Source of the DNA: Streptomyces sp. NBC_01445
Lineage (GTDB): Bacteria > Actinomycetota > Actinomycetes > Streptomycetales > Streptomycetaceae
Direction of reading: 5' to 3'
Assembly: GCF_035918235.1 (NCBI RefSeq)
Contig: NZ_CP109485.1
Location: forward strand, 5,815,501 to 5,879,500
Length of the DNA stretch: 64,000 bases
The notes under the pieces were generated by a model. That model was not told where the DNA came from and made no database searches. It saw only the letters and a program-made list of their open reading frames with translations. This document shows positions 2,300 to 61,146 of this stretch, in pieces. The first letter of the stretch is position 1. The number at the start of each line of letters is the position of its first letter. The translations under genes were made by a program, and so were the position numbers.

Positions 2300-2316
2300 T
2301 CTAACGGTCCGTCAGA
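2300..2316. promoter_or_regulatory. Palindromic operator, catabolic regulon site 1
   Basis: TCTAACGGTCCGTCAGA is a near-perfect 17-bp palindrome matching the window-wide motif CTGACGnnnCGTCAG. It lies between divergent genes starting at 2253 (-) and 2338 (+). Confidence 0.7.
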
Positions 2317-2337
2317 AACCGCGGGAAGGGGCCGGAC

Positions 2338-3249
2338 GTGGGGAACTTCTTGGCAGGCAAGGTGGTGGCTGTCACCGGGGCCGGGCGCGGCATCGGCAGG
2401 GCCGTCGCGCTCGCCTGCGCCGCCGAGGGCGCACGGGTCGTCGTCAACGACTACGGGGTGTCCATCGAGGGCGGCGAACCGGCGAGCGAGATCGCCGAGT
2501 CCGTCGTCAAGGAGATCGAGGCATCCGGGGGCGAGGCCGTCGCCGTCGCCGACGACATCTCGACCATGGCGGGCGGTCAGCGGATCGTCGACGTGGCGCT
2601 CGCCCGGTACGGGCGGATCGACGGCGTCGTGTGCGTCGCCGGGATCCTGCGCGAGCGGATGCTGTTCAACATGTCCGAGCAGGAGTGGGACCCGGTGGTC
2701 GCCACGCACCTGAAGGGCACGTTCACCGTGTTCCGGGCGGCGTCCGCCGTCATGCGCAAGCAGGGGTCGGGCACGCTCATCGGTTTCACCAGCGGCAACC
2801 ACCAGGGATCCGTGGCGCAGGCCAACTACAGCGCCGCCAAGGGCGGGATCATCTCGCTCGTGCGCAGCGCCGCGCTCGGGCTGCACAAGTACGGCGTCAC
2901 GGCGAACGCGGTCGCGCCCGTCGCCCGTACGCGGATGTCGGCGAACGTGCCCATGGAGCTCAAGGAGATCGGGGAGCCGGAGGACGTCGCCGCGCTCGTC
3001 GTCTATCTGCTCAGCGAACGCGCCCGTGCCGAGAAGATCACCGGACAGGTGTACACGATCGCCGGGCCCAAGATCGCGGTCTGGGCCCAGCCGAGGGAGC
3101 TGCGCTCGGGCTACGCGGAGGGCGGCTGGACGCCGGACAAGATCGCGGACTTCCTGCCGGGCACCGTGGGCGTCGATCCGATGCCGATGCTCGCGCAGTT
3201 GGAGGCGATGGCCGAGGCGGCCGCCGCGAAAGCGCGGCCCAATCAGTGA
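2338..3249 (+). CDS. SDR family oxidoreductase (3-hydroxyacyl-CoA dehydrogenase-like)
   Basis: The 303-residue protein is a classical short-chain dehydrogenase. The NAD(P) glycine motif TGAGRGIGRA is near residues 14-23, an NDYG segment follows beta-2, and the active-site YSAAKGG is near residue 163. An Asn in place of the usual acidic residue and an insertion after beta-2 resemble the N-terminal dehydrogenase domain of multifunctional beta-oxidation enzymes (HSD17B4 type), and the C-terminus is extended by about 50 residues. A 3-hydroxyacyl-CoA dehydrogenase role is therefore likely but inferred. The GTG at 2338 follows a GGGAAGGGG site. The gene leads an operon with the acyl-CoA dehydrogenase (24-bp gap) and alcohol dehydrogenase, behind operator 2300-2316. 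Confidence 0.88.
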   Translation: MGNFLAGKVVAVTGAGRGIGRAVALACAAEGARVVVNDYGVSIEGGEPASEIAESVVKEIEASGGEAVAVADDISTMAGGQRIVDVALARYGRIDGVVCVAGILRERMLFNMSEQEWDPVVATHLKGTFTVFRAASAVMRKQGSGTLIGFTSGNHQGSVAQANYSAAKGGIISLVRSAALGLHKYGVTANAVAPVARTRMSANVPMELKEIGEPEDVAALVVYLLSERARAEKITGQVYTIAGPKIAVWAQPRELRSGYAEGGWTPDKIADFLPGTVGVDPMPMLAQLEAMAEAAAAKARPNQ

Positions 3250-3273
3250 CGTCGAGGCCGGGGGCGGAGGCGC

Positions 3274-4476
3274 GTGGTGGAGTTCGGGTTCGGGGATGAG
3301 GACGAGGCGTTCCGGCGGGAGGCCCGCGCGTGGCTCGCGGAGCACCTCACCGGTGAGTACGCCGTCGCCCGGGGGCGCGGCGGGCCCGGGAGCGAGCACG
3401 AGGACGCCGGCGTACGGCGGTCCTGGGAGCGGGAGTTGGGCGCGTCCGGGTGGATCGGGCTCGGCTGGCAGCGCGACGGGTACGGCAACCGGGTCGCCTC
3501 ACCGACCCAGCAGGTCGTCTGGGCCGAGGAGTACGCGCGGGCCCGCGCGCCCGCACGCCACGGGCACATCGGCGAGAACCTGCTCGCCCCGACCCTGATC
3601 GCGTACGGCGACGAGGAGCAGCAGCGGCGCTTCCTGCCGCCGGTCGCCTCCGGCGAGGAGCTGTGGTGCCAGGGCTACAGCGAGCCCGGTGCCGGTTCCG
3701 ACCTCGCGAACCTGCGCACGACCGCCGTACGTGACGGGGACACGTACCGTGTCACCGGGCAGAAGGTGTGGACGTCGCTCGCGCACGAGGCCGACTGGTG
3801 CTTCGTGCTCGCGCGCACCGAGGCCGGGTCGCGGCGTCATCACGGCCTGTCGTTCCTCCTCGTGCCGATGGACCAGCCGGGCCGGATCGAGGTGCGGCCC
3901 ATCCGGCAGCTGACCGGCACGGCTGAGTTCAACGAGGTGTTCTTCGACGGGGCGCACGCGCGCGTGGAGCACGTCGTCGGCGGCGAGGGGAACGGCTGGC
4001 GGGTCGCGATGGGGCTGCTCGCCCTGGAGCGCGGCGTCTCGACGCTCGCCCAGCAGATCGGGTTCGCCGCCGAACTCGCCGAGGTCGTACGGACCGCGGT
4101 GCGTACGGGCGCGGCCGACGACCCGCTGTTCAGGGACCGCCTCGTACGGCAGTGGGCCGAGCTGCGGGTCATGCGGTTCAACGCGCTGCGCACGCTCGGT
4201 GGCGCGCAGGACCCGGGCGCCCCGAGCGTCGCCAAGCTCCTGTGGGGCCGCTGGCATCAGCGTCTGGGCGAACTCGCCCTCCAGGCGCGGGGCGCGCTCG
4301 CCGCCGCCGGGCCCGGGGACTGGACGCCTGACAGTCCGTACGAACTCGACGCCGCACAGCGGCTGTTCCTCTTCAGCCGGGCCGACACGATCTACGGCGG
4401 CTCGGACGAGATCCAGCGCAACATCATCGCCGAGCGCGTGCTCGGGCTGCCCAGGGAGACGAGGGAGTCGTCATGA
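3274..4476 (+). CDS. Acyl-CoA dehydrogenase
   Basis: The 400-residue, full-length flavoprotein of the acyl-CoA dehydrogenase family would perform FAD-dependent alpha,beta-desaturation of an acyl-CoA and pass electrons to ETF. The middle domain shows the FAD-contacting segment YSEPGAGSDLANLRT and the KVWTSLAHEADW strand. The C-terminal helical domain ends with YGGSDEIQRNIIAERVLGLP, the usual family signature. It starts with GTG after a GGCGGAGG site and its last codons overlap the ATG of the downstream alcohol dehydrogenase (ATGA). It resembles the FadE subfamily that handles branched or ring-containing acyl-CoAs, but chain specificity cannot be read from sequence alone. Confidence 0.92.
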   Translation: MVEFGFGDEDEAFRREARAWLAEHLTGEYAVARGRGGPGSEHEDAGVRRSWERELGASGWIGLGWQRDGYGNRVASPTQQVVWAEEYARARAPARHGHIGENLLAPTLIAYGDEEQQRRFLPPVASGEELWCQGYSEPGAGSDLANLRTTAVRDGDTYRVTGQKVWTSLAHEADWCFVLARTEAGSRRHHGLSFLLVPMDQPGRIEVRPIRQLTGTAEFNEVFFDGAHARVEHVVGGEGNGWRVAMGLLALERGVSTLAQQIGFAAELAEVVRTAVRTGAADDPLFRDRLVRQWAELRVMRFNALRTLGGAQDPGAPSVAKLLWGRWHQRLGELALQARGALAAAGPGDWTPDSPYELDAAQRLFLFSRADTIYGGSDEIQRNIIAERVLGLPRETRESS

Positions 4477-5522: not shown

Positions 5523-5529
5523 GCCGGGC

Positions 5530-6552: not shown

Positions 6553-6626
6553 GGCTCCGAGTGTATGGCCCGATCCTAGCGAAGGCTGTCTTTCGGGCCA
6601 CTCGCCCGGAGCGGGTCCGTGATCCG

Positions 6627-7979: not shown

Positions 7980-8597
7980 TCAGTGCTCGAAGCGGCCGAA
8001 CACGCCCTTGTGGAACAGCAGCGGGGACGCCTCGCCCTCCGTCGTCCCGAGCGCCTCCACCCGGCCCACCACGATGAGGTGGTCCCCGCCCGTGTGGACC
8101 GCGTGGATCGTGCAGTCGACCCACGCGGGTGCGCCCGCGAGCCGCGGCGAGCCCGTCACCGGCGCCGCGTCGTGCTCGACGCCCGCGAACTTGTCCGCGC
8201 CGCTCACCGCGAAGGACCGGCACAGCGCGCCCTGGTCCGCGCCCAGGACGTTCACGCAGAAGACGCCGGCGCTCGCGATGCGCGGCCAGGTCGTGGACGT
8301 ACGGGCCACCATGAACGCCACCAGTGGCGGGTCCAGGGAGAGCGAGGAGAAGGACTGGCAGGCGAAGCCGGCTGGGGGAGCGCCGGGGTGCGGGGGCGGC
8401 GCCGTGACGACCGTGACGCCGGTGGCGAAGTGGCCGAGGACGCGGCGGAACTCGCCGGGGTCCAGTGGCGCCCGCTCGTCCTCGCCCACCGCCCGTAGCT
8501 CCGGACGCGGCAGTGCGTCCACCGGCTCGGCCGACGTGGGCGCACCGACCGACCGGAGGTACCTGACCACCGTCGCTGCCATTCCTGCGTGTCCCAT
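7980..8597 (-). CDS. Flavin reductase family protein
   Basis: The 205-residue protein carries the flavin reductase-like (FMN-binding split barrel) domain: FRRVLGHFATGVTVVTA, then FACQSFSSLSLDPPLVAF, and a terminal LLFHKGVFGRF segment. Family members reduce free FMN/FAD for two-component monooxygenases, or act as the reductase of HsaB-type systems. An N-terminal extension of about 45 residues precedes the domain. The start at 8597 is chosen over 8582, whose purine-rich stretch abuts the ATG too closely. A clean operator (8615-8629) lies 18-32 bp upstream, so this gene has its own promoter although it follows the enoyl-CoA hydratase on the same strand. Confidence 0.87.
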   Translation of the reverse strand: MGHAGMAATVVRYLRSVGAPTSAEPVDALPRPELRAVGEDERAPLDPGEFRRVLGHFATGVTVVTAPPPHPGAPPAGFACQSFSSLSLDPPLVAFMVARTSTTWPRIASAGVFCVNVLGADQGALCRSFAVSGADKFAGVEHDAAPVTGSPRLAGAPAWVDCTIHAVHTGGDHLIVVGRVEALGTTEGEASPLLFHKGVFGRFEH

Positions 8598-8614
8598 CAC
8601 ACCTACGATTGAAG

Positions 8615-8629
8615 CTGACGATGCGTCAG
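8615..8629. promoter_or_regulatory. Palindromic operator, site 2
   Basis: CTGACGATGCGTCAG is a perfect match with both half-sites intact. It is located between the end of the enoyl-CoA hydratase gene and the start of the flavin reductase gene, both on the minus strand. Confidence 0.75.
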
Positions 8630-8680
8630 ATAGGAAGTGGTGGGCCCGAATTCGATGACGGCGGCCGGCTGCGAAGTCGG

Positions 8681-11785: not shown

Positions 11786-11800
11786 CTGACGTAGTGTCAG
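11786..11800. promoter_or_regulatory. Palindromic operator, site 3
   Basis: CTGACGTAGTGTCAG has intact outer half-sites with one inner substitution. It lies 36 bp upstream of the acyl-CoA synthetase start. Confidence 0.7.
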
Positions 11801-11809: not shown

Positions 11810-11824
11810 CTGACGCTGTGTCAG
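11810..11824. promoter_or_regulatory. Palindromic operator, site 4
   Basis: CTGACGCTGTGTCAG is a second copy, 24 bp from site 3 centre to centre. The pair therefore lies on roughly the same helical face upstream of the acyl-CoA synthetase gene. Confidence 0.7.
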
Positions 11825-11969: not shown

Positions 11970-13121
11970 TCAGCCCGCGATCGCCCTCGCGATCTTCCGT
12001 GCGTCCAGGGCCAGTTCGCGGAACATGCCGCTGATCGGGTTCGTGTAACCCGTGAAGTAGAGGCCGGGCGCGGCGGGATCGGTCCGCCGGCCGTGCCTGG
12101 TCGGGCGGCCCCGGTCGTCGAGGACGCCGAGGTGGCCCACCAGGTCTTCCAGTGCGCGCCGGTACCCCGTCGCCGCGATCACCGCGTCGGGGGTGATGTG
12201 CGCGCCGTCCGCCAGGACCACCTTGCCGTCCTCGAACGACTCGACGGCCGCGACCGGTTCGACCCGGCCCGTGCGTACGGCGTCGATCAGGCCGACGTCC
12301 TGCACGGGGATCGCGCCCTCGCGCACCCGCGAGTAGAGGCCGGTCGTGGGTCTGGGCAGGCCCTGTTCCGCCAGGTCGGGCACGCTGAGCTTCGCCATCG
12401 GGCGGGCCAGGCGGTCCACGAGCGCCACGGGCAGCCTGCGGCACAGGATGCCGGTCCGCTGTGTGGGCCAGCCCGCGGTGGACCGGCGCACCATGTGGGG
12501 CGCCGTGCGGACCGCGAGCCGGACGCGGGACGCGCCGCCCTCGGCGAGGTCCACGGCGATCTCGGCGCCGGTGTTGCCGACGCCGACGACCAGCACGTCA
12601 CGGCCCGCGTACGGCTTCGCGTTGCGGTAGTCGCCCGCGTGGAGGAGCTCGCCCGTGTACGAGGAGCGGCCCGGCCAGTCGGGCAGGCGCGGGGTGTGGT
12701 TGTAGCCCGTGGCCACCACGACGGCGCTCGCGGCCAGTTCACGGCCGCCCGAGGCGCGTACGAGCCAGCCGTCCTCTGTGCGCTCCACGCGCGAGACCGC
12801 CACACCCGTGACGATCTCCAGCTGGTGGTGCTCGGCGTACTTCTCCAGGTAGCGCACGACGTCGTCGCGGGACACCCAGCGGCCGAAGCGGCGCGGGATC
12901 GCGAGGCCCGGGAGCCCGGAGAGCTTGCGGGTGGTGTGCAGGTGGAGGCGGTCGTAGTGGCGGCGCCAGGACGCCCCGACGTGCTCCGACTTCTCCAGGA
13001 TCACGGCGCGTACGCCCCGCTCGCGCAGCGCCGCGGCTGCGGCGAGGCCGCCCGGGCCGCCCCCGATGACGTACACGGGGCGGTCCTGGTTGCGTGCGGC
13101 GGGCGCGGGGGTGGTGACCAT
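11970..13121 (-). CDS. FAD-dependent monooxygenase, flavin-containing monooxygenase type
   Basis: The 383-residue flavoprotein has the FAD Rossmann motif VIGGGPGGLAAAAAL at the N-terminus, an FMO/BVMO-like fingerprint YTGELLHAGDY, and a second NADPH Rossmann motif VVGVGNTGAEIA near residue 175. The C-terminus ends with YFTGYTNPISGMFREL, seen in FMO-like proteins. Such enzymes hydroxylate nucleophilic atoms or perform Baeyer-Villiger oxidation. The ATG at 13121 is preferred; a GTG six codons upstream is possible, and neither has a clear ribosome binding site. It diverges from the DoxX-like/DUF35 pair, with operator 13233-13247 closer to the latter. Confidence 0.88.
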   Translation of the reverse strand: MVTTPAPAARNQDRPVYVIGGGPGGLAAAAALRERGVRAVILEKSEHVGASWRRHYDRLHLHTTRKLSGLPGLAIPRRFGRWVSRDDVVRYLEKYAEHHQLEIVTGVAVSRVERTEDGWLVRASGGRELAASAVVVATGYNHTPRLPDWPGRSSYTGELLHAGDYRNAKPYAGRDVLVVGVGNTGAEIAVDLAEGGASRVRLAVRTAPHMVRRSTAGWPTQRTGILCRRLPVALVDRLARPMAKLSVPDLAEQGLPRPTTGLYSRVREGAIPVQDVGLIDAVRTGRVEPVAAVESFEDGKVVLADGAHITPDAVIAATGYRRALEDLVGHLGVLDDRGRPTRHGRRTDPAAPGLYFTGYTNPISGMFRELALDARKIARAIAG

Positions 13122-13232
13122 GAGTGCGAGCGTAATCACGGTTCGATTTGATGGGTCTCGGTCAAGACCGGAATCGGTTGCGAATTCATCACGGCGTACG
13201 CCCCTTGCGGTAGCGCCCCCGCGTGCGCTGAA

Positions 13233-13247
13233 CTGACGTTCCGTCAG
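13233..13247. promoter_or_regulatory. Palindromic operator, site 5
   Basis: CTGACGTTCCGTCAG is a perfect copy, 24 bp upstream of the GTG of the DoxX-like gene and 112 bp upstream of the divergent monooxygenase. Confidence 0.75.
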
Positions 13248-15640: not shown

Positions 15641-16294
15641 TCACGGCCAGAGCAGCTCCCGTACCCAGCCCGTCTCCGTGCTGCGGTACCTGAGGCGGAT
15701 GTGGCGGCGGCGGGTGTCTCCCTGGAAGAACTCCACCTCGCGCGGGGCCAGCGCGTACGCCGTCCACGTGGGGGCGGGGGCCTTCGGGTCGGCTTGCGCG
15801 CGCTCCCAGGCCGCGACCGACGCCCGCTCCAACTCCTCCTGTGAGACCAGGACTTCGCTCTGGTGGCCGACCAGGGCTGCGGCCAGCGCTCCCGTCGAGC
15901 GGACGTGCAGGTCGGCCTGGCCCACCTCGGGGGACTGAGTGGTGACATCACCGCGAACACGGATCTGGCGGCCCTGCGACGGCCAGTAGAAGCCGAGCGC
16001 GGCCCGGGGGTGCGCCGTGAGCTGGCGGCCCTTGGCACTGCCCGCGTGGGAGGCGAAGTGGAAGCCGTCCTCGTCGGCGCCGTGCAGCATCACCGTACGG
16101 ACGTCGGGCAGGCCGTCCCCGTCCACCGTCGCGAGCGACATGGTGTGCGGCTCGGTCTGGCCGGCGGCCACCGCCTCGGCGAACCACTCGACGAAGAGCG
16201 GCAGCGGGGCGGACGGGGCCGCGGACGGGTCGAACGCGGGCAGTTCGGTGTCCCAGACGCGCAGGGACTTCAGGATCTCTTGCAGTTCGGGCAT
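15641..16294 (-). CDS. pdxH: Pyridoxamine 5'-phosphate oxidase
   Basis: The 217-residue FMN enzyme oxidises pyridoxamine or pyridoxine 5'-phosphate to pyridoxal 5'-phosphate in the B6 salvage route. Family features are clear: PHTMSLATVDGDGLPDVRTVMLHGADEDGFHFASHAGSAKG in the N-terminal half, ALGFYWPSQGRQIRVRGDV, and the C-terminal strand WTAYALAPREVEFFQGDTRRRHIRLRY. The ATG at 16294 gives the usual family length. A longer upstream frame lacks similarity. It sits apart from the catabolic genes and looks like a housekeeping neighbour. Confidence 0.88.
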   Translation of the reverse strand: MPELQEILKSLRVWDTELPAFDPSAAPSAPLPLFVEWFAEAVAAGQTEPHTMSLATVDGDGLPDVRTVMLHGADEDGFHFASHAGSAKGRQLTAHPRAALGFYWPSQGRQIRVRGDVTTQSPEVGQADLHVRSTGALAAALVGHQSEVLVSQEELERASVAAWERAQADPKAPAPTWTAYALAPREVEFFQGDTRRRHIRLRYRSTETGWVRELLWP

Positions 16295-19176: not shown

Positions 19177-20355
19177 TCAGGATGTGCCGAGCACCACCGT
19201 TCCCGACGAGCAGAACCATCCGCCCGTGCCGGACGCCACCGCGAGCCGCGGCAGCCGTCCGCCCCCCTTGCGCACCTGGCGCTCCCCGGCCTCGCCCCGC
19301 AGCTGCCGTACCGCTTCCACCAGCAGGAACAGGCCCCGCATTCCCGGGTGTTGGGCCGACAGGCCACCGCCGTCCGTGTTCGTGGGGAGCTCGCCGTCCC
19401 GCAGCAGCCGTCCCTTCTCCACGAACGGTCCGCCCTCGCCCTTCGCGCAGAACCCCAGATCCTCCAGCGTCACCAGCGTCATGTACGTGAAGGCGTCGTA
19501 GATCTCCGCGAGGTCGACCTCGTCGGGCGTTACGCCCGCCCGCTCGAAGGCGAGCTTCCCGCTGACGGCCGCCGGGGACACGGTGAAGTCGTCCCACTCG
19601 GACATCGTCGTGTGCGACACGTGCTCACCCGAACCGAGCACCCACACCGGGGACTTGGCGCAGTCGGGGAGCAGGTCCTCGGCGACGAGCAGCACGGCGG
19701 CGCCGCCGTCCGAGCGTATGCAGCAGTGCAGTTTCGTGAACGGGTCCGCGATCATCGGCCCGTCGAGCACGTCGTCCACGGTGACCGGGTCGCGGAACAT
19801 GGCCTCCGGGTTCAGCGCGGCGTTCGCCCGCGCCTGCACGGCGACCTCGGCGAGCTGTTCAAGGGTGGTGCCGTACTCGTGCATGTGGCGCCGCGCCGCC
19901 ATCGCGTACTTGGCGATCAGCGAGTGCCCGTACGGCACCTCGAACTGGAGGGGGCCGCGGGCGCCGAAGCTCAGGTTCGACGTGCGCCGTCCGGCCTTGA
20001 TGTCGGCGCGGGCCGTCGACCCGTAGACGAGCAGGACCGCGCGGGCATGGCCCTGGGCGATGGCGTCCGCCGCGTGCGCCGCCATCACCTCCCAGGTGGA
20101 ACCGCCGACCGAAGTCGAGTCCACCCAGCGGGGTTTGAGCCCCAGATACTCGGCGACCTCGATCGGCGCGAGGATGCCGAGGCCCGCGCTGGCGAACCCG
20201 TCGACGACGTCGGGGGTGAGTCCGGCGTCGGCCACGGCGCGGCGGGCGGCCTGGGCGTGCAGGGCGTAGGGAGTGGCCTCGTCCACGCGGCCGCAGTCGG
20301 AGAGGGCGATGCCGGCGATGGCGACCCGGCGGGAACCGTGAAGTGCGGCAGTCAT
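19177..20355 (-). CDS. Thiolase-fold protein (lipid-transfer/acetyl-CoA acetyltransferase family) lacking the nucleophilic Cys
   Basis: The 392-residue protein has the SCP-x/Ltp-type thiolase fold: RVAIAGIALSDCGRV at the N-terminus, RRHMHEYGTTLEQLAEVA in the middle, EIYDAFTYMTLVTLEDLGFCAKGEGGPFV and GGGLSAQHPG near the end. Where thiolases have a catalytic Cys before GST, this protein reads DSTSVGGSTW, with Ser in the aligned place, so a normal thiolytic mechanism is unlikely. Cys-less relatives such as Ltp2 act as retro-aldolases with a DUF35 partner. The operator at 20359-20375 lies immediately upstream of the ATG, overlapping the expected promoter. Aldolase activity is an inference. Confidence 0.88.
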   Translation of the reverse strand: MTAALHGSRRVAIAGIALSDCGRVDEATPYALHAQAARRAVADAGLTPDVVDGFASAGLGILAPIEVAEYLGLKPRWVDSTSVGGSTWEVMAAHAADAIAQGHARAVLLVYGSTARADIKAGRRTSNLSFGARGPLQFEVPYGHSLIAKYAMAARRHMHEYGTTLEQLAEVAVQARANAALNPEAMFRDPVTVDDVLDGPMIADPFTKLHCCIRSDGGAAVLLVAEDLLPDCAKSPVWVLGSGEHVSHTTMSEWDDFTVSPAAVSGKLAFERAGVTPDEVDLAEIYDAFTYMTLVTLEDLGFCAKGEGGPFVEKGRLLRDGELPTNTDGGGLSAQHPGMRGLFLLVEAVRQLRGEAGERQVRKGGGRLPRLAVASGTGGWFCSSGTVVLGTS

Positions 20356-20358
20356 GAA

Positions 20359-20375
20359 TCTGACGGTACATCAGA
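20359..20375. promoter_or_regulatory. Palindromic operator, site 6
   Basis: TCTGACGGTACATCAGA is a 17-bp palindrome with one mismatch. It begins 4 bp upstream of the thiolase-like start, a position that would block transcription directly. Confidence 0.72.
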
Positions 20376-20500: not shown

Positions 20501-20515
20501 ATGACGCCCCGTCAG
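20501..20515. promoter_or_regulatory. Palindromic operator, site 7
   Basis: ATGACGCCCCGTCAG has one base changed in the left half-site. It is 43 bp upstream of the acyl-CoA dehydrogenase at 20558. Confidence 0.68.
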
Positions 20516-20557: not shown

Positions 20558-21766
20558 ATGGACGCCGCCTTCACCGCGGAACAGGACGAGATCCGCCGCA
20601 CCCTGCACGAACTCATGAACAAGCGCTGCGGCCCCGAGGACGTCAAGGCCGCCGTCGGCACCCCCGCCGGCTACGACCCGGCCCTGTGGTCGGCCCTCGG
20701 CGGCGAACTGGGCCTGCCCGGCCTGGCCCTCCCCGAGCAGTACGGCGGAGTCGGCTGCGGGACCACCGAACTGGCCCTGGCCTGCGAGGAGTCGGGCCGC
20801 GCACTGGCCCCCACCCCGCTCCTGGCCACCGCGGCGCTCGCCGCCCCGCTCGTCCTCGCCCTCGGTACCGAGGCCCAGCGTGCCGAACTGCTGCCCCGCG
20901 TCGCCTCAGGCGCCCTGACCGCCACGCTCGCCGTACCCGGCGAGGGCCTCGCCACCGCGCTCGGCCTGACCGGCGACAACCGCGGCGACTGGTCGGGCGG
21001 CGGCCGCGCGGGCGGCGTCCAGGCCAGGCGGGACGACCGCCATGACGGTGGCTGGAGGCTGTACGGGCAGGCCGACCAGGTCCTCGACGGACACAGCGCC
21101 GGCCTCTTGATCGTCGCCGCGCACACCGGCGGCTTCGCCCGCTCACGCACCCTGCTCTTCCTCGTGGACGGCGACGCGGAGGGAGTCGTCAGGACCCGCC
21201 AGACGTCCCTCGACGAGACACGCCCCCGCGCCCGGGTCGAACTACGGGACGTGGCAGCCGAGTTGCTCGGCTCGGCGGGGGGTGAGGGCGGCGAGGTGGC
21301 CGGCGCCCTCGCCGCCATGGGCGACGCGGCCGCGACCGTACTCGCCGCGGAAGCCGTCGGCGCCGCCGAGCGCGCCCTGGAACGGACCGTCGAGCATGTG
21401 CGCCAGCGCGAGCAGTTCGGGCGGCCCATCGGCTCCTTCCAGGCGGTCAAGCACCGCCTCGCGGACGTCTATGTCCAGGTGCAGGCGGCGCGCTCCGCGG
21501 CGTACTACGCGGCCTGGGCGGCGGGCTCCGGGAGCGGCGAACGGACGGGCGGTCTCGCTCTCGCCCAGGCCCTGGAAGCGCTGCGCACCGCAGCGTCCGA
21601 GGCCGTCCAGCTGCACGGCGGCATCGGCTTCACCTGGGAGCATGACGCCCACCTCTACCTCAAGCGCGCGACCGGCGACGAACTCCTCTTCGGGCCCGTC
21701 CACCTGCTGCGCGCACGCGCCGCGGAATCCGCCGAGCTCTTCACCCGCCAGGAGGCGACTGCCTGA
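20558..21766 (+). CDS. Acyl-CoA dehydrogenase (second)
   Basis: The 402-residue member of the acyl-CoA dehydrogenase family has a helical N-terminus (FTAEQDEIRRTLHELM), a less conserved middle domain interrupted by a glycine/arginine-rich insert near residues 145-165, and a canonical C-terminal domain (REQFGRPIGSFQAVKHRLADVYVQV, QLHGGIGFTWEHDAHLYLKRA). It resembles the smaller subunits of heteromeric FadE complexes in steroid side-chain degradation, which have a degenerate FAD-contact middle domain. That resemblance is only suggestive. The ATG at 20558 is preceded by GGGGAGGAG. Its stop overlaps the ATG of the deazaflavin-dependent reductase. Confidence 0.9.
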   Translation: MDAAFTAEQDEIRRTLHELMNKRCGPEDVKAAVGTPAGYDPALWSALGGELGLPGLALPEQYGGVGCGTTELALACEESGRALAPTPLLATAALAAPLVLALGTEAQRAELLPRVASGALTATLAVPGEGLATALGLTGDNRGDWSGGGRAGGVQARRDDRHDGGWRLYGQADQVLDGHSAGLLIVAAHTGGFARSRTLLFLVDGDAEGVVRTRQTSLDETRPRARVELRDVAAELLGSAGGEGGEVAGALAAMGDAAATVLAAEAVGAAERALERTVEHVRQREQFGRPIGSFQAVKHRLADVYVQVQAARSAAYYAAWAAGSGSGERTGGLALAQALEALRTAASEAVQLHGGIGFTWEHDAHLYLKRATGDELLFGPVHLLRARAAESAELFTRQEATA

Positions 21767-22341: not shown

Positions 22342-22989
22342 TTACTTCGTCGGCTTCTTGCCGGTGACGCCCAGGTGCACCAACAGGGCCAGATTGGGCT
22401 TGAGTTCGGCCTGCTTGACGCCCCAGGTCTGGAAGCCCTTCTGATGAGAGGCCACCGCCGCGAGCATCGCGACGAGCGAACCGGCCATCGCGGCGGGGCT
22501 CACGTCCTTGTCGACCTTGCCCTTGGCCTGGAGCTCCTTGACCGTGTCCGTAAGGGAGTTGTTCACGGAGTTCAGGATCTTCATGCGGATCTTGTAGAAG
22601 CGCTTGTCGCCCTCGGCCGCGCCGAGGTCGACGACGCGCAGGATCGCATCGTTCTTTCGCCAGAACTCCAGGAACCCGTCCACGAGTTCCTGCGAGGTCT
22701 GCCAGCCGGCCTTGCCGACCCACGAGCGGCCCTCGAGGAGCTGGGTCAACCCGGCTCCCTCCGTGGCCATTTGCTCGGCAATCTCCAGGACGGCGCCCTC
22801 GACGTCCGGGAAGTACTGGTAGAAGGTCGCCGGTGAGGTGCCTGCCTTCCGGGCCACATCAATGACTTTGACGTCCCGGTAGGGCGAGGAGCTGAGCATC
22901 TCGCCGAGGCACTCCAGCAGCTTCTGACGCGTCGCCTGACCACGCCGTCCGGCCACTCGGCCGTCGACGGTACGTACTTGTCCTGTCAT
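22342..22989 (-). CDS. TetR family transcriptional regulator
   Basis: The 215-residue protein has an N-terminal TetR helix-turn-helix: RQKLLECLGEMLSSSPYRDVKVIDVARKAGTSPATFYQYFPDVEG, with the recognition helix around SPATFYQYF. The C-terminal ligand-binding domain is predominantly helical and unlike TetR itself. A lysine-rich tail (GKKPTK) ends it. Its ATG is overlapped by a half-degenerate copy of the window's palindrome (22983-22997), consistent with autorepression. It is the only TetR protein I see in the window and is the prime candidate to bind the 13 other sites. This assignment is an inference and could be wrong if the cognate regulator lies outside the window. Confidence 0.9.
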   Translation of the reverse strand: MTGQVRTVDGRVAGRRGQATRQKLLECLGEMLSSSPYRDVKVIDVARKAGTSPATFYQYFPDVEGAVLEIAEQMATEGAGLTQLLEGRSWVGKAGWQTSQELVDGFLEFWRKNDAILRVVDLGAAEGDKRFYKIRMKILNSVNNSLTDTVKELQAKGKVDKDVSPAAMAGSLVAMLAAVASHQKGFQTWGVKQAELKPNLALLVHLGVTGKKPTK

Positions 22990-22997
22990 GCCGTCAG
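22983..22997. promoter_or_regulatory. Degenerate operator overlapping the TetR start codon
   Basis: Read on the minus strand this is CTGACGGCATGACAG. The left half-site is perfect, the right half matches 4 of 6 bases, and the ATG of the TetR gene lies inside it. Confidence 0.45.
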
Positions 22998-29430: not shown

Positions 29431-30582
29431 TCACGCCCCCCGCAGCAGCAATGCCGACGTAGGTACCCCCTCGCCCGCCGTCACCAGGCATGTCCCCGCG
29501 TCCGGTACCTGCGCCGTGCCGATGCCGCGTAGCTGTTTCACGCCTTCGTTGATCAGGTTGAAGCCGTGGACGTACGCCTCGCTGAGGCCGCCGCCGCCCG
29601 TGTTCAGCGGCAGGCGTCCGCCGATCTCCAGCGCCCCGCCCTCCGTGAACGCCCCGCCCTCGCCCCGCCCGCAGAACCCGTACCCCTCCAGGGACAGCGG
29701 GATCAGTGGCGTGAACGCGTCGTAGATCTGGGCGACGTCCACGTCCTCCGGCCCGAAGTCGGCCTGTTTCCACAGGTGTCGGGCGGCGGTCCAGGCCGGA
29801 CCCGTCAGCGGATCGTCGTTCCAGTAGTTGACCATCCCGTGGTGCTGGGACGGCAGCCCCTGCGCGACCGAGTGCACGTACACCGGCTTCTGGCGGCAGT
29901 CGCGCGCCCGCTCGGCGGAGACGATGACGCACGCCAACGCGCCGTCCGTCTCCAGGCAGTTGTCGAAGAGGCAGAGCGGCTCGCTGATCATGCGGGCCGT
30001 CATATACATGTCGCGCGTCAGCGGCCGCTCGTACATCATCGCGGCCGGGTTCTGGTTGGCGCGGTTGCGGCAGGCGAGCGCGACGTTGAAGAGGTGGTCC
30101 CTGGTCGCCCCGTACTCGTGCATGTAGCGCCGCGCGAGCATCGCGATCTCGTCGGCGGGGCGCAGCAGCCCGTACGGGCGGGTCCACTGTGCCGGCGTCG
30201 GCAGCTGGACGGCCGTGTTCTTCCACGGGCGCGGCCCCGACCCTCGTTTGCGCGAGCGCCAGGCGACCCCGACACTCGCCTGCCCCGTGGCGACGGCGCC
30301 GGCCAGGTGCGCGACCGTCGCGCACGATCCGCCGCCCCCGAATCCGACCTTGCTGAAGAAGGTCACGTCCCCCGCGCCGACGGCCTTGGCGACCTCGACC
30401 TCGTCGGTCTCCTCCATCGTGTACGAGGCGAAGGCGTCGACCTCGGACGGCGCGATCCCGGCGTCGTCGAGCGCGGCGAGAATCGCCCGGCACGCCAACG
30501 TCTTCTCACTCTCGGGGAGTTGTTTGCCGAAGGGCGTCTGCCCGATCCCCACTATGGCCGTCGCGTCCTTGAGCCCCGCCAT
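29431..30582 (-). CDS. Ltp2-like thiolase-fold protein (putative acyl-CoA aldolase)
   Basis: The 383-residue protein aligns by eye with mycobacterial Ltp2, the retro-aldolase of cholesterol side-chain degradation. Shared marks are AIVGIGQTPFGK, VTFFSKVGFGGGGSCATVAH (Ltp2 has TFFSKIHYGGGAACATVQH), RRYMHEYGATRDH, GYGFCGRGEGGAFTEGGALEIGGRLPLN and GEGVPTSALLL. As in Ltp2, the canonical thiolase Cys position is not a Cys. I infer a carbon-carbon cleaving aldolase working with a DUF35 partner, the nearest being at 28890. It diverges from the FadD3-like ligase, with two operators between them, 49 and 76 bp upstream of its ATG. Confidence 0.9.
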   Translation of the reverse strand: MAGLKDATAIVGIGQTPFGKQLPESEKTLACRAILAALDDAGIAPSEVDAFASYTMEETDEVEVAKAVGAGDVTFFSKVGFGGGGSCATVAHLAGAVATGQASVGVAWRSRKRGSGPRPWKNTAVQLPTPAQWTRPYGLLRPADEIAMLARRYMHEYGATRDHLFNVALACRNRANQNPAAMMYERPLTRDMYMTARMISEPLCLFDNCLETDGALACVIVSAERARDCRQKPVYVHSVAQGLPSQHHGMVNYWNDDPLTGPAWTAARHLWKQADFGPEDVDVAQIYDAFTPLIPLSLEGYGFCGRGEGGAFTEGGALEIGGRLPLNTGGGGLSEAYVHGFNLINEGVKQLRGIGTAQVPDAGTCLVTAGEGVPTSALLLRGA

Positions 30583-30630: not shown

Positions 30631-30645
30631 CTGACAGCGCGTCAG
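30631..30645. promoter_or_regulatory. Palindromic operator, site 8
   Basis: CTGACAGCGCGTCAG has intact outer halves. It lies between divergent Ltp2-like (30582) and FadD3-like (30706) genes. Confidence 0.68.
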
Positions 30646-30657: not shown

Positions 30658-30672
30658 CTGACGGATAGTCAG
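30658..30672. promoter_or_regulatory. Palindromic operator, site 9
   Basis: CTGACGGATAGTCAG is a second copy 27 bp from site 8. It is 34 bp upstream of the FadD3-like ATG. Confidence 0.68.
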
Positions 30673-39382: not shown

Positions 39383-39397
39383 CTGACGGGTCGTCAG
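39383..39397. promoter_or_regulatory. Palindromic operator, site 10
   Basis: CTGACGGGTCGTCAG is a perfect copy, 22 bp upstream of the amidohydrolase ATG and 130 bp from the divergent afsR start. Confidence 0.75.
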
Positions 39398-39418
39398 ATC
39401 GGCGCTACCGTGGTCGAC

Positions 39419-40687
39419 ATGGAGACCACGGAGACCAAGAAGGAGACCGGGGAGAGCCCGCGTGCCTTTCCCCGGATCATTTCGGTGGATGACCACACTG
39501 TGGAACCGCCCGGCGTCTGGCAGGACCGCCTCCCGGCCAAGTACCGGGACGAAGGCCCGCGCATCGTGCGCGCCCCCCTGAAGGAAATGACGTTCCTGGG
39601 CGGCAAGTTCGCGCCCGTCATGGGCGCGCCCGGGGAGGAGGGGCCGATAGGTGACTGGTGGGTCTACGAAGACCTGCACCGGCCCCTCACCCGACTCGAC
39701 ACCGCCGTCGGATACGACCGCGACGAGATCAAGCTCGAGGTCATCACGTACGAGCAGATGCGCAAGGGCTCGTACGACGTGCCCGCCCGGCTCGCCGACA
39801 TGGACGTCAACCACGTCCAGTCCGCGCTCTGTTTCCCCACCTTCCCGCGTTTTTGCGGGCAGACGTTCACCGAGGCCAAGAACCGCGAGCTCGGGCTGCT
39901 CGGTGTGCGCGCGTACAACGACTGGATGGTGGAGGAGTGGTGCGGGCCGCAGGCCCAGGGGCGGCTGATACCGCTCACCCTCGTCCCGCTGTGGGATGCC
40001 GAGCTCGCCGCGGCGGAGGTGCGACGCAACGCCGCCCGGGGCGTGCGTGCCGTCGCCTTCTCCGAGATACCGCCCCACCTGGGCCTGCCCTCCGTCCACA
40101 CGGACGAGTGGGACCCCTTCCTGCGGGCCTGTGACGAGACCGGCACCGTCATCGCCATGCACATCGGGTCGTCCAGCAAGATGCCGTCGACCTCGCCCGA
40201 CGCGCCGCCCGCCGTCGGCTCGACCATCACCTTCGCCAACTGCTGCTTCTCGATGGTCGACTGGCTGATGAGCGGCAAGTTCGAGCGCTTCCCGAACCTC
40301 AGGATCATGTATGCCGAGGGCCAGATCGGCTGGATCCCGTACATCCTGGAGCGCGCGGATGTGGTCTGGGAGGAGAACCGCGGCTGGGGCGGCGTCGCCG
40401 ACAAGGTCCGCAAGCGGCCCTCCGAGTACTTCGCCGACCACGTATACGGCTGCTTCTTCGACGACGCGTTCGGGCTCAGGAACCTCGACGCGATCGGCGT
40501 GGCGAACGTGCTCTACGAGACCGACTACCCGCACTCCGACTCCACCTGGCCGAAGTCCAAGGAGGTCGGCGAGGCGCAGATGGGGCACCTGGACGCGGAC
40601 GTCGTCGAGCGCATCGTGCGCGGCAACGCCATCGACCTGCTGGGGCTGACCGACGACGGGCTCTGGGCGGGGCAGGGTGGTGAGTGA
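39419..40687 (+). CDS. Amidohydrolase family protein (ACMSD-like metal-dependent hydrolase)
   Basis: The 422-residue protein has the amidohydrolase-2 (ACMSD/hydratase-lyase) TIM-barrel pattern. RIISVDDHTVEPPGVW is at the N-terminus, an HIGSSSKMPSTSPDAPP segment includes a metal-site His, RIMYAEGQIGWIPYILERADVVWEE follows, and a final NVLYETDYPHSDSTWPKS carries the catalytic Asp. Members hydrolyse or decarboxylate cyclic substrates; related actinobacterial proteins sit in sterol and terpene clusters. It leads an operon with an LLM enzyme and an SDR behind operator site 10. The specific reaction is not predictable. Confidence 0.88.
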   Translation: METTETKKETGESPRAFPRIISVDDHTVEPPGVWQDRLPAKYRDEGPRIVRAPLKEMTFLGGKFAPVMGAPGEEGPIGDWWVYEDLHRPLTRLDTAVGYDRDEIKLEVITYEQMRKGSYDVPARLADMDVNHVQSALCFPTFPRFCGQTFTEAKNRELGLLGVRAYNDWMVEEWCGPQAQGRLIPLTLVPLWDAELAAAEVRRNAARGVRAVAFSEIPPHLGLPSVHTDEWDPFLRACDETGTVIAMHIGSSSKMPSTSPDAPPAVGSTITFANCCFSMVDWLMSGKFERFPNLRIMYAEGQIGWIPYILERADVVWEENRGWGGVADKVRKRPSEYFADHVYGCFFDDAFGLRNLDAIGVANVLYETDYPHSDSTWPKSKEVGEAQMGHLDADVVERIVRGNAIDLLGLTDDGLWAGQGGE

Positions 40688-41633
40688 CCCCATGACGTCC
40701 GGGACGTCGCACCTCGCCTACGGCATCCAGCTCCCCGTCCAGTCCCAGTCCACGATGTACGCCGAGGGCTGGGAGGCCGGGGCCGGCGCCGCCGACCTCG
40801 CCGAGATCGCCCGCACCGCCGACCGCACAGGCTTCGACTACATCGCCTGCTGCGACCACGTCGCCATCCCGCGCCGCCTCGCCGACGCGATGAGCACCGT
40901 CTGGTACGACCCGGTGGCCACGCTCGCCTACCTCGCGGGCATCACCGAGAACGTGCGCCTCATGAGCCACGTCGCGATCGTCGGCCTGCGCCATCCGCTG
41001 GCCACCGCCAAGCAGTACGCCACCCTCGACCATCTCTCCGGGGGCCGCCTGATCCTCGGGGTCGGGGCAGGGCACGTACAGGAGGAGTTCGAGGCGCTCG
41101 GGGTCGACTTCACGCGGCGCGGGGCCGTGCTCGACGAGGCCCTGGACGCGCTGAAGGCGGCGCTCGGGCCCGAGGAGTATCCGTCGTTCAAGGGGGAGCG
41201 GTACGCGTTCGAGGGGCTCGGGCAGCGGCCGCGTCCCGCGCAGAGCCGCGTCCCCGTGTGGGTGGGCGGCTCCTCGGCTCCCGCTGTGCGCCGCGCCGCC
41301 GTGAAGGGGGACGGGTGGCTGCCGCAGGGGGACACGCGCGAGCAACTGCCTGGACAGATCGCGAAGTTGAAGCGGCTGCGGGAGGAGGCGGGCATCGAGC
41401 CTCCCGTCACCGTGGGAGCGATCGCCGAGCCCCTGTACGTGGGCGAGCCCGCGTGGCATGTCGGCCGACGCACCCTGTCCGGCGCCCCGCAGGCCCTCGC
41501 CGAGTCGCTGCGCGCGTACGGCGCGATGGGCGTGAACCAGATCCAGGTCCGGTTCCGCTCCCGGAGCCTGGGTGAACTCACCGACCAGATGGCGGCGTTC
41601 GGCGCCGACGTCGCTCCGCACCTGAACGACTGA
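40677..41633 (+). CDS. LLM class F420-dependent oxidoreductase
   Basis: The 318-residue TIM-barrel protein follows the luciferase-like/F420 pattern: [62 protein letters not shown] and PVWVGGSSAPAVRRAAVKGDGWLP. These match the mycobacterial Rv-type F420-dependent subgroup rather than true monooxygenases. The GTG at 40677 is used; GTG 40680 and ATG 40692 are alternatives because the gene overlaps the end of the amidohydrolase gene. It is the second gene of the operator-10 operon. The three-gene set could oxidise an alcohol or enone in the same route. Confidence 0.87.
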   Translation: MVSDPMTSGTSHLAYGIQLPVQSQSTMYAEGWEAGAGAADLAEIARTADRTGFDYIACCDHVAIPRRLADAMSTVWYDPVATLAYLAGITENVRLMSHVAIVGLRHPLATAKQYATLDHLSGGRLILGVGAGHVQEEFEALGVDFTRRGAVLDEALDALKAALGPEEYPSFKGERYAFEGLGQRPRPAQSRVPVWVGGSSAPAVRRAAVKGDGWLPQGDTREQLPGQIAKLKRLREEAGIEPPVTVGAIAEPLYVGEPAWHVGRRTLSGAPQALAESLRAYGAMGVNQIQVRFRSRSLGELTDQMAAFGADVAPHLND

Positions 41634-41686
41634 GCACCTGAACGACCAGGCAACGACCAGGCACCTCACCGATTGGGAGTACCGGC

Positions 41687-42466
41687 ATGGGCAAGCTGGA
41701 CGGGCGCGTCGTCGTCATCACGGGCGCGGCGCGCGGGCAGGGCGAGCAGGAGGCGCGGCTGTTCGCCGCGGAGGGCGCCAAGGTGGTGCTCGGGGATGTC
41801 CTCGACGACCAGGGCGAGGCGCTCGCCAAGGAGATCGGCGGGCTCTACGTCCATCTGGACGTGAGCCGCGAGGACGACTGGGCGGCCGCCGTCGTCGCCG
41901 CGAAGAAGGCGTACGGGAAGATCGACGGGCTCGTGAACAACGCGGGGATCCTGCGGTTCAACGAGCTGGTGAGCACGCCCCTGGACGAGTTCCAGCAGAT
42001 CATCCAGGTCAACCAGGTGGGTGCCTTCCTCGGGATCAAGACCGTCGCGCCCGAGATCGAGGCCGCCGGCGGCGGTTCGATAGTGAACACGGCCTCCTAC
42101 ACAGGGGTGACGGGCATGGCGTACGTCGGCGCGTACACCGCGACCAAGCACGCCATCGTGGGGCTGACGAAGGTGGCGGCCCTCGAGCTGGCCGCGAAGA
42201 AGATCCGCGTGAATGCCGTCTGTCCCGGCGCCATCGACACCGCCATGAGCAATCCCTCGCAGCTGGACCCGGGCGCGGACACCGAGGAGGCCTCGCAGGC
42301 CCTCGACGAGCTGTACCGCAAGCTCGTGCCGCTGGGGCGGGTCGGGCAGCCCGAGGAGGTGGCGCGGCTCGCGCTGTTCCTCACCGCACAGGAGGACTCC
42401 GCGTACATCACGGGCCAGCCGTTCGTCATCGACGGCGGGTGGCTGGCGGGCGTCAGCGTGCTGTGA
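41687..42466 (+). CDS. SDR family oxidoreductase (hydroxysteroid dehydrogenase-like)
   Basis: The 259-residue classical SDR has [20 protein letters not shown] (coenzyme motif), [14 protein letters not shown] and the active-site YTATKHA with an upstream NTASYTG segment. The GAARGQGE pattern with Gln in place of Ile is typical of the 3-alpha/20-beta-hydroxysteroid dehydrogenase-like group in Streptomyces and mycobacteria. The ATG at 41687 follows GGGAG. It ends the amidohydrolase-LLM-SDR operon. NAD-dependent oxidation of a secondary alcohol is likely; a steroid substrate is only suggested. Confidence 0.88.
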
Positions 42467-42478: not shown

Positions 42479-42493
42479 GTGACGCTGCATCAG
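42479..42493. promoter_or_regulatory. Palindromic operator, site 11
   Basis: GTGACGCTGCATCAG differs from the consensus at two positions. It lies 13 bp after the SDR stop. Confidence 0.5.
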
Positions 42494-42538: not shown

Positions 42539-42553
42539 CTGACGGTACGTCAG
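42539..42553. promoter_or_regulatory. Palindromic operator, site 12
   Basis: CTGACGGTACGTCAG is perfect, 60 bp downstream of site 11 centre to centre and 60 bp upstream of the LLM start. Flanking T and A extend it to a 17-bp palindrome. Confidence 0.75.
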
Positions 42554-54280: not shown

Positions 54281-54314
54281 GGTGCGGAACCCGCGGACTC
54301 TTGGGTTCCGCACC
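54281..54314. terminator. Strong bidirectional hairpin terminator
   Basis: GGTGCGGAACCC (54281-54292) and GGGTTCCGCACC (54303-54314) form a perfect 12-bp stem with a 10-base loop, between the convergent fbiC and FG-GAP genes. Confidence 0.7.
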
Positions 54315-54339
54315 GGTTCCGCACCCCGCCTGCTGTCGT

Positions 54340-55779: not shown

Positions 55780-55896
55780 CCTTCTTGGTGTCCTGTGGGG
55801 GTGTTCCTGGTTACGTGAAGAAAGACAGGCCACCCAAGGAAAACGTTGTACGCGCCCCGGAGTACGTACGTCCCAAGCCTGTAACAGCGCATGCGG

Positions 55897-55934
55897 AGGC
55901 CCTCGTTCGGGGCGTGGATCCCGAACGAGGGCCT
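55897..55934 (-). terminator. Strong hairpin terminator after the tyrosine phosphatase gene
   Basis: A perfect 15-bp stem (arms 55897-55911 and 55920-55934) with an 8-base loop lies 21 bp past the minus-strand stop at 55955. Confidence 0.7.
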
Positions 55935-55954
55935 GATCGCTGAAGAGAAGGGGG

Positions 55955-57037: not shown

Positions 57038-57300
57038 GGTGCGGATGTTCCGGGTGTCCGGCGATGCGTGAGTCAACGCACGGTGAACGGCGCACGTCGG
57101 ACGGCCGTCGAGCGGCGCCGCGCCGCAGGTCCCCGGGCCGCGCCCAGGGACATCGTCCGGTTTGCGGAAGAAAAGCGGGTGAATTGGTCTCAAGGGCGAC
57201 TTCGCCTGTGCCGCTTCGGCTCTCAACCGCGTGCGCCCCGTCGATTACAGTGCTGCGCAGTCGTCGCACGCGTAACGAGACCCGGAGGGGAGAGCTCCCC

Positions 57301-58440: not shown

Positions 58441-58448
58441 ACGCCGAA

Positions 58449-58482
58449 GCGCCGGACCGGCTGTGATCAGCCCGCCCGGCGC
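58449..58482. terminator. Weak hairpin between convergent genes
   Basis: GCGCCGG (58449-58455) pairs with CCGGCGC (58476-58482) over a 20-base loop, between the ADP-ribosylglycohydrolase and symporter stops. Confidence 0.35.
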
Positions 58483-58499
58483 CCGGTGAGGAACGAGTC

Positions 58500-60086: not shown

Positions 60087-60117
60087 TGAGCCCCCTCCAG
60101 GGGTCTGGTCCTACTTG

Positions 60118-60130
60118 TGAACGCCGTTCA
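60118..60130. promoter_or_regulatory. Palindrome TGAACGCCGTTCA upstream of the symporter
   Basis: A perfect 13-bp inverted repeat, 32 bp upstream of the symporter ATG; a likely repressor site. Confidence 0.5.
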
Positions 60131-60208
60131 TGGTGTGGGGAGCCGAAGGGCCAGGACAACGCACCGGAGGGTCAAGGGACAGTAAAATCGTTCTACTTAT
60201 TGACCTGT

Positions 60209-60224
60209 GTTCATGTCCGTGAAC
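60209..60224. promoter_or_regulatory. Palindrome GTTCATGTCCGTGAAC upstream of the symporter
   Basis: The outer 5-base arms GTTCA and TGAAC are exact complements. It lies 123 bp upstream of the symporter start and re-uses the half-sites of 60118-60130 in inverted order. Confidence 0.4.
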
Positions 60225-60236
60225 TGAGATGGGGGC

Positions 60237-60271
60237 AAAAGGGACCGCACGGCGGTGGGTGCCGTGCGGTC
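60237..60271 (-). terminator. Rho-independent terminator with U tract
   Basis: An 11-bp perfect stem (60243-60253 and 60261-60271) with a 7-base loop is followed on the minus strand by TTTT (60240-60237). It is 49 bp beyond the stop of the SDR gene at 60320. Confidence 0.75.
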
Positions 60272-60319
60272 GGGTCCCGGTTGCCCGTGCGGGCCGCCTG
60301 TCGGGGGTGTCTCGCGGAA

Positions 60320-61102
60320 CTACCGCATCAGCTCACCGGCGTTGACCAGAAGGGACTGCCCGGTGATGGCCCGCGCCCGGTCGGACGCGAGGAACACGGC
60401 GGCGTCCGCCACGTCCCCGTCCGTGGCCAGCTCGGGCAGCGCCATCCGCTCGGTGAGCCGCCCCAGGACCTCGTCCTGCGACACGCCCTCGGTGTGCGCG
60501 GTGAACTGGACGTACGCCTCGACCGGCGGCCCCCACATCCATCCGGGCAGCACGGTGTTGACGCGGATGCGGTGCGGGCCGAGCTCGCGGGCCATGGAGT
60601 ACATGGCCGAGGTCAGCGCGCCCTTCGACGCCGCGTACGCGGCCTGCCACACCTGGGAGGGCGCGGCCACGGCCGACTGCGTGCCGATGACGACGACGGA
60701 GCCGCCCCGCTCTTTGAGTGCGGGCAGACAGGCCCGCGTCATGCGCAGCGTGCCCAGCAGGTTCACGTCGATGACCTGCTGCCACGTCGCGAAGTCCGCA
60801 TCCTCGAGGCCGCCGAAGTAGCTGTCCCAGGCGGCGACATGGACCACGGCGTCGACCCCGCCGAACCGCTCGCGCGCGAGACCCGCCAGCGTCTCGCACT
60901 GGCTCTCGTCGGTGATGTCCGTCGCCGCGTACGCGGTGTGCGTACCGCCCGGGTCGATCTCCGCGGCCGACTTGGCGAGGTTCGCCTCCGTGCGCGCGCC
61001 GAGCACGGCGTTGCCGCCGTCGCGCACCACGGCCGCGGCGACCTGGTGACCGAGCCCGGCCCCGACCCCCGACACGACCACTGTCTTTCCGTTCAGGAGC
61101 AT
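60320..61102 (-). CDS. SDR family oxidoreductase
   Basis: The 260-residue classical SDR has VVSGVGAGLGHQVAAAVVRDGG (coenzyme motif) and the active-site YAASKGALTSA with Ser in IGTQSAV. The NNAG tetrad residue is replaced by VAAW (HVAAWDSYF), so the usual catalytic Asn is missing. That is unusual but seen in some steroid-type SDRs. The ATG at 61102 is 30 bp from operator 61132-61146, which also faces the divergent unknown gene. A secondary alcohol or ketone step is likely. Confidence 0.87.
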   Translation of the reverse strand: MLLNGKTVVVSGVGAGLGHQVAAAVVRDGGNAVLGARTEANLAKSAAEIDPGGTHTAYAATDITDESQCETLAGLARERFGGVDAVVHVAAWDSYFGGLEDADFATWQQVIDVNLLGTLRMTRACLPALKERGGSVVVIGTQSAVAAPSQVWQAAYAASKGALTSAMYSMARELGPHRIRVNTVLPGWMWGPPVEAYVQFTAHTEGVSQDEVLGRLTERMALPELATDGDVADAAVFLASDRARAITGQSLLVNAGELMR

Positions 61103-61131
61103 CCGGTCGCCTCCCGGCTATGGCAGTTCTT

Positions 61132-61146
61132 CTGACGGGGCGTCAG
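61132..61146. promoter_or_regulatory. Palindromic operator, site 13
   Basis: CTGACGGGGCGTCAG is a perfect copy in a compact 81-bp divergent promoter between an SDR (61102, -) and an unknown gene (61184, +). Confidence 0.75.

Follow-up and report, generated by a model that had tools for sequence, protein, structure and literature searches.

Proposed operators in the window and at orthologous loci

The window analysed here is a stretch of 64,000 nucleotides from Streptomyces sp. NBC_01445 (contig NZ_CP109485.1, positions 5,815,501 to 5,879,500 of the forward strand), in which copies of a palindrome with the core CTGACGnnnCGTCAG (extended form about TGAAtCTGACGnnnCGTCAGaTTCA) recur in front of genes. 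The palindrome is very probably (at about 85%) the operator of a PF19352-type TetR protein encoded in the same window at 22342-22989, which would control a scattered, mostly catabolic regulon. The original prediction had placed 13 copies in the window, and the core is present at all of them, although two coordinates had been off by one (2301 and 20360 are correct): five copies are exact, seven have one mismatch, and one has two. A 23-bp matrix, trained on sites from orthologous loci with the window left out of training, recovered the same 13 in the 64 kb (scores 17.2-30.5) together with a 14th, and nothing else scoring 9 or higher. The sites and the principal genes are as follows (families from Pfam where indicated):

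2301..2315: operator, one mismatch, between a cyclase-family gene (1327-2253, minus strand) and a short-chain dehydrogenase/reductase (SDR) gene (2338-3249, plus strand); matrix score 23.6; Pfam
8615..8629: operator, exact, about 130 bp upstream of a flavin reductase gene (7980-8489, minus strand); matrix score 27.2; Pfam
11786..11800: operator, one mismatch, upstream of an NDP-forming acyl-CoA ligase gene (9534-11666/11750, minus strand); matrix score 30.5
11810..11824: second operator of the NDP-forming ligase promoter, one mismatch; matrix score 22.0
13233..13247: operator, exact, between a flavin-dependent oxidoreductase gene (11970-13139, minus strand) and a DoxX-like gene (13271, plus strand); matrix score 29.1
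20360..20374: operator, one mismatch, at the start of a thiolase-fold gene (19177-20355, minus strand); matrix score 29.2
20501..20515: operator, one mismatch, upstream of an acyl-CoA dehydrogenase gene (20558-21766, plus strand); matrix score 25.0
22342..22989, minus strand: proposed regulator of 215 aa, TetR_N and TetR_C_38 (PF19352) domains; SCO4421 orthologue by gene order
22983..22997: 14th site, two mismatches, across the start codon (ATG) of TetR; candidate operator for autoregulation; matrix score 14.9
29431..30582, minus strand: thiolase-fold lyase gene; next in order come a ChsH2-type OB-fold gene and one for an enoyl-CoA hydratase
30631..30645: operator, one mismatch, upstream of the Ltp2-like thiolase-fold gene 29431-30582; matrix score 17.2
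30658..30672: operator, one mismatch, common to the Ltp2-like gene and a divergent AMP-forming acyl-CoA ligase gene (30745-32289, plus strand); matrix score 29.6
39383..39397: operator, exact, upstream of amidohydrolase, luciferase-like monooxygenase (LLM) and SDR genes (39410-42466, plus strand), in the gap to an AfsR-type gene (36254-39253, minus strand); matrix score 23.7; Pfam
42479..42493: operator, two mismatches, upstream of an LLM oxidoreductase gene (42643, plus strand); matrix score 18.6
42539..42553: operator, exact, upstream of the same LLM gene, which is followed by amidohydrolase and aldehyde dehydrogenase genes; matrix score 30.0; Pfam
61132..61146: operator, exact, between an SDR gene (60320-61102, minus strand) and a gene for a 280-aa protein (61184-62026, plus strand); matrix score 22.6

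The five exact matches compare with 0.02 expected, a number of five or more being reached in none of 100 shuffles, and the matrix gave no site scoring 11 or higher in 320 kb of mononucleotide-shuffled sequence. The sites had been described as all intergenic. Twelve do fall between predicted genes, in promoter regions, but 20501 runs into an alternative start codon (ATG) farther upstream in the acyl-CoA dehydrogenase open reading frame. Housekeeping genes had been described as free of sites; neither the fbiC-type gene (51714) nor the gene 15641-16294 (presumably pdxH) has an operator, but site 39383 shares its gap with the AfsR-type gene. This site may also touch that divergent regulator; among the 80 orthologous loci described below, the amidohydrolase gene behind it was mapped in just one.

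Pfam places the operator-linked genes in the cyclase, SDR, flavin reductase, NDP-forming and AMP-forming acyl-CoA ligase and flavin oxidoreductase families, and further in the DoxX-like, ChsH2-type DUF35 (the gene after DoxX-like 13271), thiolase-fold, acyl-CoA dehydrogenase, amidohydrolase and LLM families. The closest solved chain to the product of 29431-30582 is 6ok1, named 'Lipid-transfer protein' (E 4.2e-96), which we take to be Ltp2, the steroid side-chain aldolase. The 280-aa product of 61184-62026 has no Pfam match.

Conservation was assessed in the best 80 of at least 574 stretches encoding a relative of the TetR protein, all of them titled Streptomyces (1.33 Mb; TetR 92-98% identical). 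These contain 51 exact cores and 287 with at most one mismatch, compared with 0-1 and 1-14, respectively, for six spacer and orientation controls, and 366 matrix sites compared with 3 for a half-swapped control. All but three of the 287 lie outside the interior of mapped genes, where the mapped genes are orthologues of window genes only. An operator is present upstream of every mapped orthologue of the thiolase (76/76), acyl-CoA dehydrogenase (68/68), lipid-transfer protein (74/74) and AMP-forming ligase (47/47) genes, and upstream of most orthologues of the DoxX-like (33/34), NDP-forming ligase (9/10) and flavin oxidoreductase (16/27) genes. None was found at orthologues of neighbours outside the set (GNAT, 0/35; 14161, 0/30; AfsK, 0/50) or of genes inside the operons (F420-type, 0/74; enoyl-CoA hydratase, 0/52; OB-fold, 0/51). 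At two divergent promoters the operator columns are 98% conserved, compared with 54% (66 loci) and 73% (46 loci) for the remaining columns. The original prediction had been staked on a motif denser than background and kept at orthologous promoters, and it came through on both counts.

The TetR protein as candidate regulator

The window TetR has a TetR_N domain at 26.1 bits (cut-off 24) and a TetR_C_38 domain at 245 bits. A homologue search gave 3731 proteins; among the 120 listed, any names attached were generic. The AlphaFold model is all-helical and of only moderate confidence (pLDDT 78), with five models that are uneven and were built on 16 close sequences. EthR of M. tuberculosis, a single-target regulator, is the best solved relative (E 4e-6, over the N-terminal half only) and also the closest by fold (TM 0.73-0.78 by query for the first 25 rows, at 17-18% sequence identity across the fold). 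A weaker structural match is FadR of Bacillus halodurans. KstR2 and FadR-type TetR proteins, which are distant in sequence, are acyl-CoA-responsive repressors of lipid catabolism, with operators that are not known to resemble CTGACGnnnCGTCAG.

The order of genes in the window (TetR, glyoxalase-like, AfsK-type kinase at 24201-26606) is the same as around SCO4421 of S. coelicolor, a TetR gene near afsK. Accordingly, the window TetR is identified here, by gene order, as the putative SCO4421 orthologue. In passages of PMC3878966, SCO4421 is described as close to afsK (SCO4423), whiA-dependent and active in spore chains, its deletion mutant K319 as having no detected phenotype, and no operator or regulon is reported for it there. 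Expression in spore chains (PMC3878966) would tie a lipid-catabolic repressor to sporulation.

The 14th site lies over the TetR ATG in 79/79 loci. The stretch before the ATG, ...GGTAAGCTGACGGC-ATG, is conserved in the 80 loci. An operator placed in this way would overlie both a possible -10 element and the beginning of a leaderless message, a position that would suit autorepression. In the proposed mechanism, a TetR dimer would sit on or near the target promoters and its own start region, keeping the genes off, until an acyl-CoA-like or lipid catabolite releases it. The genes so controlled would include acyl-CoA ligases, acyl-CoA dehydrogenases, the Ltp2/ChsH2-type lyase, thiolases, hydratases, F420- and flavin-dependent oxidoreductases, amidohydrolases and CYP125.

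In a class-wide sample of 196 genomes, 18 outside Streptomyces have a full-length TetR homologue (more than 119 bits, 40-52% identity). With one family (f13, five genomes) set aside from the copy-number comparison, the 13 non-Streptomyces genomes with TetR have 2-17 motif copies (median 12), compared with a median of 1 in the 159 without it (p 2e-8), where the maximum of 11 copies occurs in small genomes of family f21. The contrast is also seen within families: genomes of family f14 have 12-17 copies with TetR (five genomes) and 0-1 without it (three genomes), and those of family f16 have 6-15 (five genomes) and 0-5 (12 genomes), respectively. Among 11 loci of distant homologues, six (L157, L159, L162-L165) have a site scoring at least 16.8 within about 50 bp upstream of TetR, and a seventh (L161) has a good site about 260 bp away.

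The neighbourhood of TetR gives a further link. In the five f16 genomes it stands beside orthologues of 40692 and of the aldehyde dehydrogenase (ALDH), LLM and ADH genes of a second operator-bearing cluster described below (39-60% identity); CYP125, KstR and FadA5 also stand beside it at locus L199, and the 61184 orthologue, with an operator, at L199, L200 and L202. Genes that form this compact cluster in f16 are scattered in Streptomyces, with the operator mostly retained. Thus, the proposal of one TetR-like regulator over a dispersed set, with 22342-22989 as its partner, is the best-supported reading, from co-occurrence among genomes, the own-start site, the sites at six of 11 distant homologues, and the neighbourhood.

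Within Streptomyces, 18 genomes were chosen for low (14) or high (4) copy counts, and all have kept TetR. In the low-copy genomes it is more diverged (59-89% identity), and copy number correlates with TetR identity over the 18 (Spearman 0.73, a phylogenetically confounded value). In five genomes (G235, G301, G302, G229 and G295) the motif is rare or absent while TetR is retained in diverged form (59-74% identity), and G302 has two equal-scoring copies close together on opposite strands.

The genomes of the actinomycete family f13 (G012, G031, G046, G059 and G072; loci L206-L220), in which TetR is 40% identical, contain 78-230 motif copies, compared with 0 for the reversed control. Their regulon may be far larger, or the palindrome may serve some other purpose there.

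Genome-wide reach, KstR and the role of the gene set

The Streptomyces sp. NBC_01445 genome (11.47 Mb) contains 10 exact sites, five of them beyond the window, and 146 with at most one mismatch, compared with 3 and 46, respectively, for a spacer-6 control. A refined pattern has 79 matches (6 for the reversed pattern), or 36 (2 for the reversed pattern) when A/T flanks are included, one site being counted three times in apparent terminal repeats. An operator precedes a ligase/amidohydrolase pair 3 kb upstream of the window, and others outside it precede acyl-CoA dehydrogenase, LLM, DUF35, nitronate monooxygenase and enoyl-CoA hydratase genes. The regulon had been called catabolic, which describes its main targets but not all of them, and it appears to extend to roughly 30 operators genome-wide. 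Among the matches to the refined pattern, CTGATTAAGAGTCAG occurs three times without change within 25 kb (G000:C1 6366350, 6376922 and 6391007) and probably belongs to a longer repeat. Across the genus, the operator pattern was found in 120 of 121 Streptomyces genomes, with 0-62 copies (median 30; control 0-3) and fewer than 10 copies in 17 of the 121.

The second cluster, at 6.94-7.01 Mb, comprises an Mce operon (Mce4_CUP1 domain), CYP125, FadA5 and a KstR orthologue. CYP125 (E 2.9e-159 to the solved CYP125) and FadA5 (E 1.8e-153) are divergent with an operator between them, and this promoter, unlinked to the window, has the operator in 9/9 orthologous regions. The KstR orthologue is a separate gene near motif-bearing genes (L098:3256-3876; E 1e-39 to the solved KstR), and KstR was not among the matches listed for the window TetR (60 of 67).

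As described in PMC1995591, mycobacterial KstR (Rv3574) is a TetR dimer that binds a palindrome, is autoregulated and has a scattered regulon, which includes mce4, ltp2-4, fadE, fadD, fadA5 and the Rv3545c/Rv3546 promoter. The proposed system is alike in having a TetR protein, a palindrome and a large scattered gene set of similar kinds, but the proteins differ (TetR_C_20 in KstR, TetR_C_38 in the window TetR), as do the sites (TnnAACnnGTTnnA for KstR, CTGACGnnnCGTCAG here). Both regulators are encoded in the same genome, and some promoters have sites of both kinds: strict KstR boxes lie beside three operators of the second cluster (L098:1104, L098:19587 and L099:19736). In the CYP125/FadA5 regions the strict box was found in 0/9, and a one-mismatch extended box is present in this strain and in the nine orthologous regions (10/10), with a chance by shuffling of about 1-4% each. 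The idea that CYP125/FadA5 had passed from KstR control to that of the new regulator was considered and dropped because of these ten boxes; dual control by KstR and the new regulator appears likelier.

The predicted enzymes resemble those of sterol side-chain catabolism, and from the enzyme types the substrate is best read as a branched or polycyclic lipid, sterol-like or terpenoid. Steroid ring degradation as the role of the set is not supported: a strong match to KshA (E below 1e-80) was found in only 10 of 121 Streptomyces genomes (any match over the family cut-off in 33), and the strain's own KshA locus (L245 and L246; 7.355-7.395 Mb) has no operator scoring 12 or higher. Since the motif is found in 120 of the 121 genomes, the shared programme would not be ring degradation as such. 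The KshA locus is an apparent steroid ring-degradation island, its other ring genes being recognised from their N-termini only; it includes another TetR gene (L245:5035-5655), which looks KstR2-like on visual inspection, and is free of both the operator and strict KstR boxes.

Alternative explanations and significance

Several observations weigh against assigning the operator to the window TetR. The own-start site has two mismatches, and since the whole stretch around the TetR start is conserved, the conservation of this site is not independent evidence. It has been lost in three Streptomyces genomes with a diverged TetR (G229, G301 and G302) and likewise at L151 (G106), and G235 keeps TetR (74% identity) with no match to the refined pattern. 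Outside Streptomyces, two genomes with TetR (G019 and G027) have no motif excess (2 and 4 copies), the genomes without TetR come mostly from other families, so that co-occurrence is partly phylogenetic, and five of the 11 distant homologues (L155, L156, L158, L160 and L161) have no good site near TetR, although in the first four TetR follows other cluster genes and a more distant promoter is possible. Beyond the window, several sites stand in front of genes with no evident catabolic role (ABC transporters, lipoprotein-like). Finally, family f13 was set aside as an extreme case of the regulon because several of the sites inspected there lie inside genes; in G012, 3 of the 14 loci with a scored site have it inside a gene and some others have it abutting a gene end, by gene calls from a Streptomyces-trained model.

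A regulator encoded elsewhere, with the PF19352 TetR as a mere neighbour or fellow traveller, would fit a link made up of co-occurrence and neighbourhood, and it would fit G235; it is nevertheless improbable, given the operator directly upstream of TetR in families with different neighbours, and a copy number that tracks the presence of TetR in two families and, subject to the confounding mentioned, its identity in Streptomyces. Binding by KstR, with the operators as an ordinary KstR regulon whose box has drifted, has in its favour the KstR orthologue near motif-bearing genes and a gene set like that of the mycobacterial regulon (PMC1995591). However, this is less probable still: KstR has its own box, which was found as a strict box with exact core at 15/15 Streptomyces KstR promoters where the new operator was found at 0/15, and the window has no strict KstR box. 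The motif is not in excess in genomes that have KstR but lack TetR (median 2 copies in 40 genomes, compared with 1 in 119 with neither; p 0.55), whereas two Streptomyces genomes with no KstR at E 1e-20 (G143 and G178) have 15 and 5 motif copies.

It is unlikely that the regulon is the strain's full steroid degradation pathway; operators at CYP125/FadA5, beside the Mce operon and at the Ltp2-like gene would suit such a pathway, whereas the operator-free KshA locus and the rarity of strong KshA matches would not, and, of more than 50 Streptomyces, PMC4810484 reports a cholesterol pathway in about one. A chance palindrome favoured by Streptomyces codon usage, in which CTG ACG and CGT CAG are common, has next to no probability. 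Matches with up to three mismatches are indeed below chance in the window (45, with 75 expected), a point in favour of chance, and part of the 146 one-mismatch matches in the genome is background; the signal comes from strict sites with A/T-rich sequence on either side, and for the strict sites chance is refuted by numbers far above the controls and by their position in promoters. The assignment of the operator to the window TetR is the preferred reading.

No description of the operator was found in the literature searched, which included motif strings in five spellings and left subscription papers and supplements outside the search. As far as searched, the sites therefore appear to define a conserved, previously unlabelled regulon of a known kind, that of a TetR repressor of lipid catabolism. 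A bolder proposal, offered tentatively and on balance doubtful, would make the SCO4421-type TetR a master repressor throughout the genus. It would govern a second catabolic programme of the sterol type, developmentally expressed and cross-wired with KstR at shared promoters such as CYP125/FadA5; the substrate would be an isoprenoid lipid, branched or polycyclic but not a steroid, and perhaps one of the organism's own, such as hopanoids or spore lipids.

With the assignment to the window TetR, a highly conserved orphan TetR protein of Streptomyces gains a candidate DNA site and gene set, which S. coelicolor and the existing SCO4421 deletion mutant make directly testable. Dozens of scattered enzymes of unknown role would be grouped into one programme, and the KstR-type and new sites on the same promoters point to two TetR systems there. 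The regulon also offers a possible reason for the persistence of CYP125, FadA5, Mce and Ltp2-type genes in Streptomyces genomes that have no strong KshA match.

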